Assembly: GCF_003290185.1 (NCBI RefSeq)
Contig: NZ_QNFY01000004.1
Location: forward strand, 62,001 to 126,000
Length of the DNA: 64,000 bases
Direction: 5' to 3'
Source: Chryseobacterium lathyri
GTDB lineage: Bacteria > Bacteroidota > Bacteroidia > Flavobacteriales > Weeksellaceae
The notes under the pieces were generated by a model that searched no databases, was not told the origin of the DNA, and saw only the letters and a list, made by a program, of their open reading frames with translations. Below are positions 2,158 to 64,000 of this stretch, in pieces. Positions within the stretch are counted from its first letter, which is position 1. Each line of letters starts with the position of its first letter. The position numbers were made by a program, and so were the translations under genes.

Positions 2158-2200
2158 TGTCATTCTGTCACATTCTTTTTCATGGTATTTTTTTTGAGGC
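2158..2200 (+). promoter_or_regulatory. htpG upstream region with GG-N10-GA promoter-like motif
   Basis: CATGGTATTTTTTTTGAGG (2181-2199) places GG (2184-2185) ten bases before GA (2196-2197), similar to a -24/-12 layout. The GG lies 48 bp before the htpG ATG. Just upstream are two TGTCA boxes at 2158-2162 and 2166-2170. The same arrangement (CATGGCAT, N10, GA) precedes groES. No good TAnnTTTG box is present here. Assignment as a heat-shock promoter is inference from this similarity. Confidence 0.5.
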
Positions 2201-2231
2201 TTACATAGAAAATTTAAAAACAAAAATTATT

Positions 2232-4124
2232 ATGACTAAAGGAAATATTAATGTATCTGTGGAAAATATTTTCCCGCTTATTAAAAAATTTCTTTACAGT
2301 GACCACGAAATATTCCTGAGAGAGCTTATTTCCAATGCAACGGATGCTACCTTAAAGCTAAAACATTTAACAAGCATCGGGGAAGCAAAGGTTGAATACG
2401 GAAATCCGAAGATTGAAGTTAAAATTGATAAGGAAAATAAAACACTTCATATTGTCGATCAGGGTATCGGGATGACTGCTGAAGAGGTTGAAAAATACAT
2501 CAATCAGGTTGCTTTTTCCGGAGCTGAGGAATTCCTTGAAAAATATAAGGACACGGCAAAAGATGCAGGAATTATCGGACATTTCGGTCTTGGATTCTAT
2601 TCAGCATTTATGGTGGCTGAAAAAGTGGAGATCATCACAAAATCTTACAAAGATGCCCCTGCAGTAAGATGGATCTGCGACGGAAGCCCGGAATTTACCC
2701 TTGAGGAAACTACTGATAAAACTAACAGAGGAACTGAGATCATTCTCCATATTGCAGAAGATTCTACGGAATTTTTAGAAGAAGCTAAAATCCGTGAATT
2801 GCTATCAAAATACAATAAATTCATGCCTGTTCCAATTAAATTCGGGACAAGGACACATACTCTTCCATTACCTGAGGATGCTCCGGAAGATGCTGTTGCA
2901 GAAACCGAGGAAGTAGATAATATCATCAACAATCCTACTCCGGCATGGACCATTGCGCCAAGCGAGCTGACGAATGAAGACTATATGAAGTTCTACCACG
3001 AACTGTATCCAATGCAGTTTGAGGAACCTTTATTCAATATTCACCTGAATGTTGATTATCCTTTCAACCTTACCGGAATTTTATTCTTTCCGAAAATAAG
3101 CAACAATTTAAATATCGATAAGGATAAAATCCAGTTATACCAAAACCAGGTATTTGTAACAGATGAAGTGAAAGGTATTGTTCCTGATTTCCTGATGCTT
3201 CTGAGAGGTGTAATAGATTCTCCGGACATTCCACTGAACGTTTCGCGTTCTTACCTTCAGGCTGATGGTGCAGTGAAGAAAATCTCGTCTTACATCACTA
3301 AGAAGGTTGCCGATAAAATGTCTTCCCTGATCAACGAAAACCGTGAAGATTATGAGCAAAAATGGAACGATATTAAAATCGTGATCGAATACGGAATTAT
3401 CACGGAAGATAAATTCGCAGAAAAGGCAGATAAATTTACACTATATCCTACCACAGACGGAAAGTATTTCCTGTGGAATGAATTAATTGAAAAAATCCAG
3501 CCTGCCCATACGGATAAAGACGGCAATACAGTAATCCTTTATGCAACGAATGCTGATGAACAGCACAGCTATATTCAGGCAGCTAACGATAAAGGTTATG
3601 ACGTTCTGTTATTAGACTCACCTGTGATCTCCCATGTTATTCAGAAACTGGAAACTTCAAAAGAAAAGATCTCATTTGCAAGAGTGGACGCAGACCATAT
3701 CAATAACCTCATCAAAAAAGATGAGCCAGTTATTTCCAAATTAAATGAAACTGAAAAAGAATCTTTGAAGAAAGATGTAGAAGAGGCCGTAAAGGATGCC
3801 AAATTTACTGTACAGCTTGAAGATCTAGACAGCAATGATGCTCCGTTTACAATCACGCAGCCGGAATTCATGAGAAGAATGAAGGAAATGCAGGCAACCG
3901 GAGGAGGCGGTATGTTCGGAATGGGAGGCTTCCCAGAGATGTATAATCTTGTGGTGAATTCTAACAGCGAGCTTTCGAACCAAATTTTAAAGACAGAAAA
4001 TCCTGAGGAAAAGGAAACGCTTATTAAATATGCTCTTGATCTGGCCAAACTTTCACAGAACCTGCTGAAAGGAAAAGACCTGACAGATTTTATCCAGAGA
4101 AGCTATAAGCAGTTGGAAAAATAA
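2232..4124 (+). CDS. htpG: molecular chaperone HtpG (Hsp90)
   Basis: Cytosolic ATP-dependent Hsp90 chaperone of 630 residues, the usual length. The N-terminal GHKL ATPase domain (about 1-210) shows the signatures SDHEIFLRELISNATDA, VDQGIGMTAEEV and GHFGLGFYSAFMVA. The middle domain includes LYPMQFEEPLFNIHLN and DIPLNVSRSYLQ. The C-terminal dimerisation domain has a glycine-rich insert, GGGGMFGMGGFPE. The ATG at 2232 (MTKGNINVSVENIFP) matches the family start. An in-frame ATG at 2157 would add 25 unrelated residues and lies upstream of the proposed promoter. The gene stands alone, followed by a terminator. Regulation is probably heat-shock dependent; see the shared motif with groES. Confidence 0.97.
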   Translation: MTKGNINVSVENIFPLIKKFLYSDHEIFLRELISNATDATLKLKHLTSIGEAKVEYGNPKIEVKIDKENKTLHIVDQGIGMTAEEVEKYINQVAFSGAEEFLEKYKDTAKDAGIIGHFGLGFYSAFMVAEKVEIITKSYKDAPAVRWICDGSPEFTLEETTDKTNRGTEIILHIAEDSTEFLEEAKIRELLSKYNKFMPVPIKFGTRTHTLPLPEDAPEDAVAETEEVDNIINNPTPAWTIAPSELTNEDYMKFYHELYPMQFEEPLFNIHLNVDYPFNLTGILFFPKISNNLNIDKDKIQLYQNQVFVTDEVKGIVPDFLMLLRGVIDSPDIPLNVSRSYLQADGAVKKISSYITKKVADKMSSLINENREDYEQKWNDIKIVIEYGIITEDKFAEKADKFTLYPTTDGKYFLWNELIEKIQPAHTDKDGNTVILYATNADEQHSYIQAANDKGYDVLLLDSPVISHVIQKLETSKEKISFARVDADHINNLIKKDEPVISKLNETEKESLKKDVEEAVKDAKFTVQLEDLDSNDAPFTITQPEFMRRMKEMQATGGGGMFGMGGFPEMYNLVVNSNSELSNQILKTENPEEKETLIKYALDLAKLSQNLLKGKDLTDFIQRSYKQLEK

Positions 4125-61937: not shown

Positions 61938-62072
61938 ATGAAAAACGCTAAATCATTAAGCAGAGAGGCTCAAAAATCCATCGTTGGAGGCGCAGCCGGA
62001 ATTGTTTGCTGCGAATGGAACGATCAGGGAAAATGCATCCTTTGGATCGGGCCGGGACAGCACTGCCCTTAG
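61938..62072 (+). CDS. GG-leader bacteriocin-like peptide
   Basis: A 44-residue peptide beginning MKNAKSLSREAQKSIVGG and followed by a 26-residue cysteine-rich core. The leader has the LSRExxxxIxGG pattern of double-glycine leaders cut by C39-type ABC transporters, with cleavage expected after G18. The core has four cysteines (C24, C25, C33, C43), two tryptophans and a C-terminal proline, suited to disulfides or other modification. I recall orphan peptides of this style being frequent in Chryseobacterium. No transporter, immunity or modifying enzyme is encoded nearby. It has its own -7 box and a strong terminator, so expression as a separate unit is likely. Confidence 0.75.
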   Translation: MKNAKSLSREAQKSIVGGAAGIVCCEWNDQGKCILWIGPGQHCP

Positions 62073-62137: not shown

Positions 62138-62208
62138 TGCCAAATTTTCACACTGGGAAATAAAATTCTGCCATTTCATCCACAGATCTCTCATGGCATA
62201 CATTTAGA
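62138..62208 (+). promoter_or_regulatory. groES upstream region with GG-N10-GA promoter-like motif
   Basis: CATGGCATACATTTAGAG (62192-62209) places GG (62195-62196) ten bases before GA (62207-62208), 51 bp before the groES ATG, as in front of htpG. TGCCA boxes lie at 62138-62142 and 62169-62173, the second in ATTCTGCCA (compare ATTCTGTCA before htpG). No CIRCE inverted repeat was seen. Confidence 0.5.
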
Positions 62209-62245: not shown

Positions 62246-62524
62246 ATGTCAGTAAACTTTAAACCATTAGCAGACAGAGTTTTGATCGAGCCGATCGCTG
62301 CAGAAACTAAAACAGCTTCAGGTATTATTATTCCGGACACCGCAAAAGAAAAACCACAGGAAGGTACAGTAGTAGCAGTAGGTCCAGGGAAAAAAGATGA
62401 GCCTACAACTGTTCAGGTAGGTGACAAAGTTCTTTATGGAAAATATTCAGGTTCTGAATTAAAATTAGACGGAAAAGATTTCTTAATCGTTAAGGAAGGT
62501 GATTTACTTGGTGTAATCGGGTAA
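62246..62524 (+). CDS. groES: co-chaperonin GroES
   Basis: A 92-residue co-chaperonin forming the heptameric lid of GroEL. Signatures: [19 protein letters not shown], then the mobile loop [27 protein letters not shown], and [20 protein letters not shown]. Length is normal. It is followed by groEL 119 bp downstream, an unusually long gap for this operon that contains GTAC-rich repeats. Confidence 0.97.
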
Positions 62525-62531
62525 GATTTGT

Positions 62532-64000
<1,469 letters not shown>

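Follow-up and report, generated by a model that had tools for sequence, protein, structure and literature searches.

Known control of chaperone genes

In many bacteria, groESL and dnaK are controlled by HrcA and CIRCE. Sigma-54 is usually discussed in connection with nitrogen, motility, and envelope functions. PspF is an AAA+ activator of a stress regulon that lacks an N-terminal sensor and carries a C-terminal Fis-type helix-turn-helix (HTH).

In Flavobacterium psychrophilum, the mapped starts of groES-groEL, dnaK, grpE-dnaJ, htpG, lon, and clpB carry a sigma-54 motif, SM4 (PMC9723704). Co-expression places groES-groEL, lon, dnaK, grpE-dnaJ, and htpG in one cluster and clpB in another (PMC9723704). 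The available sections of that study list sigma-A, one sigma-54, and seven ECF sigma factors, together with three PF00158 proteins as possible activators, none of which is assigned there to the chaperone promoters (PMC9723704). It was mainly growth on blood agar that induced the SM4 promoters, and the same sections report no heat test (PMC9723704). On a wider scale, a sigma-54 regulon prediction found GroES, GroEL, DnaK, DnaJ, GrpE, and IbpA enriched in Bacteroidota, most strongly in Flavobacteriia; in its available text, grpE and groES of some species are called sigma-54-dependent, citing Sabree 2009, and Gonzalez 2011 is likewise cited (PMC12316311).

Another control has been described in Porphyromonas gingivalis. 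There, gel shifts showed the response regulator RprY bound to the promoters of groES, dnaK, and clpB but not to that of htpG, and it is read as a repressor of the three genes under sodium depletion; no CIRCE was found, according to the available parts of the report (PMC3646045).

The link between sigma-54 and chaperone genes is already in print. The additions made here are a helically phased upstream box and a candidate activator, termed EBP-A. The locus shares with F. psychrophilum the same chaperone genes and the -24/-12 elements, but the available sections of that study mention no phased upstream box (PMC9723704). The phylum-wide work concerns the same kinds of genes, but, in the text available, as a prediction at the level of COGs (PMC12316311). 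The P. gingivalis system is alike in being a Bacteroidia-type control of groES, dnaK, and clpB without CIRCE; it differs in that its regulator is a repressor and a response regulator, for which the available text names no binding motif (PMC3646045). In the other open-licence papers searched, as judged by titles and abstract openings, nothing was recognised on a phased box or an activator of the EBP-A type.

The htpG and groES promoters

The window is a stretch of 64,000 nucleotides of the Chryseobacterium lathyri genome, C4:62001-126000, and coordinates without a contig prefix refer to it. The initial annotation had reported a GG-N10-GA motif before htpG and groES. Direct re-reading of the coordinates confirms it in both places: GG lies at 2184-2185 and GA at 2196-2197, 48 bp before the htpG ATG at 2232, and GG lies at 62195-62196 and GA at 62207-62208, 51 bp before the groES ATG at 62246. 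The features are as follows.

2158..2170, plus strand: htpG upstream element TGTCATTCTGTCA, matching 8/8 fixed positions and ending 12 bp before the -24 TGG
2183..2197, plus strand: htpG sigma-54 type -24/-12 promoter TGGTATTTTTTTTGA (GG-N10-GA)
2209, plus strand: predicted htpG transcription start, placed 12 bp after the A of GA by standard sigma-54 geometry
2232..4124, plus strand: htpG coding sequence (HSP90)
62138..62150, plus strand: groES distal upstream element TGCCAAATTTTCA, matching 7/8 positions, 43 bp before the -24 TGG and in helical phase
62169..62181, plus strand: groES proximal element TGCCATTTCATCC, second half degenerate and below the 6/8 cut, 12 bp before the -24 TGG
62194..62208, plus strand: groES sigma-54 type -24/-12 promoter TGGCATACATTTAGA (GG-N10-GA)
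62220, plus strand: predicted groES transcription start, from the same geometry
62246..62524, plus strand: groES coding sequence (Cpn10, 92 aa)
62644..64000, plus strand: start of groEL, which continues beyond the window; identified from gene order and its first residues

The ATTCTGYCA boxes noted 5' of both promoters, ATTCTGTCA and ATTCTGCCA, are present and proved the more informative part of that annotation. No TAnnTTTG box occurs within 250 bp 5' of groES, htpG, or dnaK in this genome, in agreement with what had been noted for the first two. When upstream box and -24/-12 score are combined, htpG and groES take the top two places, in that order, among the 31 + 43 sigma-54-like sites on the two window strands, a ranking whose permitted box distances were picked after the order-wide box survey.

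Two generalisations of the motif fared less well. The near-equal distance to the ATG holds for this pair (48 and 51 bp) but is no rule, as it spans 39-92 bp across groES, htpG, and dnaK of the order (sites scoring at least 10.5; groES of G021 was left out of this range, where the scan took a second site at 111 bp, and its nearer site was used in the phasing, phase-window, base-count, and control-motif analyses). CATGGYAT is not a common core, for dnaK has TGGTAC and grpE has TGGCAG. With up to two mismatches, CATGGYAT-N5-TTNGAG gives 81 + 58 matches in the 4.86-Mb genome versus 89 + 90 for a reversed control; since the count is at background, the literal motif alone is not significant, and it was dropped as a genome-wide marker. 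The significance of the motif comes from its position, its conservation, and the joint upstream box.

Sigma-54 promoters across the order

Upstream regions were collected from 30 genomes of the order, 18 from the same genus (the C. lathyri genome included) and 12 from other genera; the order, class, and phylum names of the compared genomes are presumed, and we take the class to be Bacteroidia. TGGYA-N6-TTGM-like sites were given a weighted score (maximum 12.2) and accepted from 10.5 upward. Such sites precede groES in 30/30 genomes, dnaK in 29/29, grpE in 30/30, htpG in 26/27, and clpB in 8/26, across 13 genera; 4-13% of shuffled regions reach the cut. These counts leave out htpG of G017 (start not found) and of G025 and G027 (no htpG match), dnaK of G013 (split frame), and clpB of G003 (split) and of G022, G024, and G027 (no full-length match). 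The one htpG without a site at the cut is that of G022. For clpB the split is clean, with 0/17 sites in the genus of the window versus 8/9 in other genera, two of the eight sites being 124 and 152 bp away from the ATG. The suggestion that other heat-shock genes of this genome share the promoter form largely holds: dnaK and grpE have it and a clpC-like gene has a near match, but clpB does not.

Among 57 non-redundant sites (the C. lathyri genome plus the 12 other genera), GG and the -12 G, both of which weigh heavily in the scoring, never vary. The next base is A in 35, C in 16, and T in 6, so that GG-N10-GM is found in 51/57 and GG-N10-GT in 6/57, and GA is commoner in the order than the textbook GC at -12. 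RpoN (PF04552) is present in 247/247 genomes drawn from the phylum, C. lathyri included. The likeness of GG-N10-G(C/A) to sigma-54 promoters, which the initial annotation had proposed, is supported by this conservation and by the mapped starts in F. psychrophilum (PMC9723704). The chaperone genes here and in relatives carry sigma-54 promoters; that reading is right and was known in outline.

A helically phased upstream box

The ATTCTGYCA strings are part of a 13-bp box, TGNCA-N3-TGNCA, whose fixed positions are identical on both strands. In htpG, dnaK, and grpE of the C. lathyri genome, exactly 12 bp separate the end of the box from the T of the -24 TGG, and groES combines a half-degenerate copy at 12 bp with a 7/8 copy at 43 bp. 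Counting boxes with at least 6/8 matches (shuffled background, 0.003 per position), the distances in 56 non-redundant promoters are 12 (25 boxes), 13 (6), 11 (3), 22-23 (9), 32-33 (5), and 42-44 bp (11); other distances exist in these promoters, some of them being the same box read in its 8-bp register. The box thus lies mostly at 12 bp and otherwise mostly at whole turns further out (22-23, 32-33, 42-44, 54, and 63-65 bp). Once overlaps are removed, off-phase boxes remain at 0, 1, 2, 4, 15, 16, 20, 29, 35, and 69 bp. EBP sites are commonly about 80-150 bp away, and the usual box here, at -39 to -51, is closer, a point against its being an EBP site. For an enhancer-binding protein, a phased box this near the promoter would be an unusual and well-defined arrangement.

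For the 48 boxes beyond 15 bp (overlaps removed), R is 0.74 at a period of 10.5, in a test that drew random positions from 16-57 whereas observed distances reach 69. For 37 distinct gene-distance pairs R is 0.68, a value reached by 0/20,000 random sets with a random range of 16-69. Both statistics are optimistic because orthologous promoters share ancestry. At least one box falls within the phase windows in 55/57 promoters, these windows (22 of 65 distances) having been defined after the peaks were seen. Permuted control motifs give 14-28 matches versus 84 for the real box, so that the chance rate is somewhat higher than the 0.003 per position seen with shuffling. The permuted motif GTNAC also reaches R 0.67, probably through its overlap with the real box, and spacing variants reach R up to 0.71, having inherited the half-sites.

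The phasing replicates weakly in the loci of the blind scan described below, where 115 loci yield 8 additional boxes against an expectation of 2.3 (p 0.03). Outside the order, groES of ten genomes of the class always has a TTGGCAY-type site scoring at least 10.5, with a less regular -12 element. Boxes before these genes lie at 12-14, 21-23, 34, 53-54, and 64 bp and also at 4, 5, 7, 41, 51, 61, and 69 bp, a small independent echo of the phasing and no proof of it.

Joint-motif scans

In the C. lathyri genome, only htpG and dnaK match the joint pattern with 12-bp spacing without a mismatch. Three sites have one mismatch, before grpE, before a clpC-like gene, and at C13:109705, where no obvious chaperone gene follows. 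Only matches with zero or one mismatch are informative, since the total is 18 versus 12 in the control. A variant with a repeat period of 9 instead of 8, in effect a negative control, gives 28 matches versus 29 for its reversed control. The clpC-like gene, named by eye (C2:224733, minus strand, L384), has both the near match and an upstream box.

A blind scan for exact TGNCA-N3-TGNCA-N12-TGGCA-N6-TTGA in the GTDB collection of 84,980 species returned at least 119 stretches. Among the matches listed, 117 are Bacteroidota, with genera presumptively placed in phyla from general knowledge, one is a cyanobacterial MAG, and one, Candidatus Scybalousia (L245), carries no phylum assignment. Downstream ORFs were scanned for 117 (L241 and L245 have no readable ORF after the motif). 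Among the matches listed, Pfam assigns them to HSP70 (40), GrpE (28), HSP90-type ATPase (26), thioredoxin (8), Clp_N (3), AAA (2), LON (2), and HSP20 (2), and one further ORF is groES by sequence. With families counted as separate ORFs, about 112/117 readable matches listed precede protein-quality genes. The box looks specific to a protein-quality regulon, as motility and envelope genes are absent among the matches listed.

Eight matches precede a trxA-like thioredoxin gene (L261, L273, L279, L307, L315, L317, L341, and L342). All are from Pedobacter or Mucilaginibacter, which suggests a lineage-specific member of the regulon. Another possible new member is a YugP-type zinc metallopeptidase gene, recognised by eye, at L319.

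EBP-A, a candidate activator

PF00158 proteins are present in 30/30 genomes of the order. One of them, EBP-A, has 384-430 residues, with an AAA+ domain starting at residue 12-14 and a C-terminal Fis-type HTH. It matches PF00158 at an E-value of about 1e-67, and a 13-row alignment has GAFTGA or GSFTGA in the loop. In the four copies scanned, HTH_8 was found, while no receiver, GAF, or PAS domain was detected and there is no N-terminal sensor. The closest solved relatives are the AAA+ domains of FleQ, NtrC-type proteins, ZraR, and PspF. Two copies reached no NCBIfam cut-off among the best 25 of 27 and best 25 of 26 families, and their TIGR02974 scores of 281.2 and 283.6 bits lie below the cut-off of 443.55 for a PspF equivalog. 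EBP-A shares with PspF an alignable AAA+ domain and the sensorless layout with a Fis-type HTH, but differs in its longer AAA-HTH linker and in its target genes.

EBP-A is found near full-length in 29/29 genomes of the class. Its gene follows miaB, directly or with one ORF between, in 12/13 genera of the order and in 16/16 class genomes outside it, and usually precedes lptE. The cluster order is miaB-EBP-lptE-secG-groES-groEL, and EBP-A often stands four genes ahead of groES; within the stretch retrieved, groES lies downstream in 9/13 genera of the order and 10/16 class genomes outside it. A comparable arrangement is tabulated for F. psychrophilum, where an operon of a 'probable sigma-54-dependent regulator' and lptE, four locus tags from groES, is listed under another motif (PMC9723704, Table 2). 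groES lies away from EBP-A in the genus of the window and in G025, G028, and G029. The C. lathyri gene (C2:26324-27595) stands beside miaB and lptE and is unlinked to groES. No clear box was seen by eye in the DNA upstream of EBP-A itself at five loci. G024, G027, and G028 have no strong PF00158 match besides EBP-A, yet they keep the promoters and boxes; EBP-A should therefore be the sole sigma-54 activator in these genomes.

HrcA and CIRCE

The initial annotation had suggested that heat-shock genes of this lineage do without CIRCE and HrcA, and the genomes bear this out. HrcA (PF01628) occurs in 65/118 genomes of the phylum, 0/29 in the class of the window and 65/89 in other classes. The upstream regions of the order hold no CIRCE-like repeat, the best candidates having 5-7 mismatches of 18 per gene. 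groESL and dnaK are targets common to the HrcA/CIRCE system and the one described here, but the class lacks HrcA and the order lacks a CIRCE-like repeat.

HrcA is found in 3/51 genomes with EBP-A at 450 bits or more versus 62/67 below, a cut that was set after the scores were seen and that splits one family (G085, at 449.9 bits, has HrcA). Few evolutionary changes lie behind these counts, and kinship was ignored. G032, G037, and G077, from family f24 of another class, have both HrcA and a high-scoring EBP-A and possibly represent an intermediate state. In family f34, also outside the class, genomes carry EBP-A and no HrcA.

Proposed mechanism and alternatives

The promoters, the box and its phasing, the gene cluster, and the absence of HrcA were established by computation. 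htpG and groES-groEL probably belong to a sigma-54 heat-shock regulon, widespread in the class, in which EBP-A binds the phased box and activates transcription. Members would include htpG, groES-groEL, dnaK, grpE-dnaJ, and clpC, with clpB joining outside the genus of the window. RNA polymerase with RpoN would sit in a closed complex on TGGYA-N6-TTGM, and EBP-A would occupy TGNCA-N3-TGNCA, placed upstream by one or more full turns of the helix, on a face that lets its AAA+ ring reach sigma-54. Rising protein damage would then lead EBP-A to open the complex. We infer that EBP-A is the protein that binds the box and the main activator. Points against this reading are the closeness of the box to the promoter, the missing promoter at clpB of this genus and htpG of G022, the separation of groES from EBP-A in part of the genomes, RprY in P. 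gingivalis, and a second EBP, EBP-B, near grpE in five genera. As for the signal, a guess by analogy is that free chaperones inhibit EBP-A and that induction is relief of this inhibition; PspA acting on PspF, DnaK on sigma-32, and GroEL with HrcA are the models.

Chance resemblance in AT-rich DNA, with GG-N10-GA falling at similar distances from two start codons, would agree with the background frequency of the literal motif genome-wide. Its probability is negligible given that sites precede groES, dnaK, and grpE in all genomes examined as well as 26/27 htpG genes, over 13 genera, and that about 112/117 readable blind-scan matches listed precede protein-quality genes. It is more conceivable, though unlikely, that a repressor, such as a response regulator of the RprY type, uses the box as its operator and gates a sigma-54 promoter that any EBP keeps active. 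The usual box, at about -39 to -51, borders directly on the polymerase, a placement that would fit a repressor, and the available text on P. gingivalis describes RprY binding and apparent repression at groES, dnaK, and clpB in an organism where no CIRCE was found (PMC3646045). However, boxes also occur in helical phase at 22-23, 32-33, 42-44, 54, and 63-65 bp, as suits an activator touching the polymerase, and RprY did not bind the P. gingivalis htpG promoter in the text available, whereas htpG of the order has clear boxes (PMC3646045). As a possible owner of the box, RprY makes the assignment to EBP-A slightly weaker.

It is quite unlikely that the main activator is instead EBP-B, acting from solution while the box serves another protein. 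EBP-B has 385-402 residues, comprising a receiver and an AAA+ domain with its lid, and no DNA-binding domain; no HTH match was found in the copies of nine genera scanned (that of G026 as a shorter ORF). It is widely shared and present in the C. lathyri genome, and an EBP-B-sized copy lies about 1.5-6 kb 3' of grpE in G018, G019, G021, G022, and G026, that of G019 being assigned by size only. Against this stand G024, G027, and G028, which keep promoters and boxes with no second strong PF00158 match, and the specific, helically phased box, which EBP-B alone would leave unexplained. EBP-B loci were recorded at G000:C1:185656-186156 (L141), L096, L097, L099, L103, L111, L113, L117, L118, and L143, and in G022 the EBP-B-sized gene directly follows a DnaJ-like ORF.

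If activation by EBP-A holds, a class common in the gut and the sea would govern its chaperone response through one AAA+ activator. Beside sigma-32 and HrcA, this would be a third logic of heat-shock control, and it would offer a reason for RpoN in every phylum genome drawn. A broader and tentative proposal is that Bacteroidia may have given up HrcA for a single sensorless activator, which would work by short-range, face-of-helix sigma-54 activation and be held down by the chaperones that it induces.

Apart from these genes, a 44-residue ORF lies just 5' of groES at 61938-62072 (MKNAKSLSREAQKSIVGG...). With its GG-type leader look and a tail containing Cys and Trp, it resembles the precursor of a small secreted peptide.
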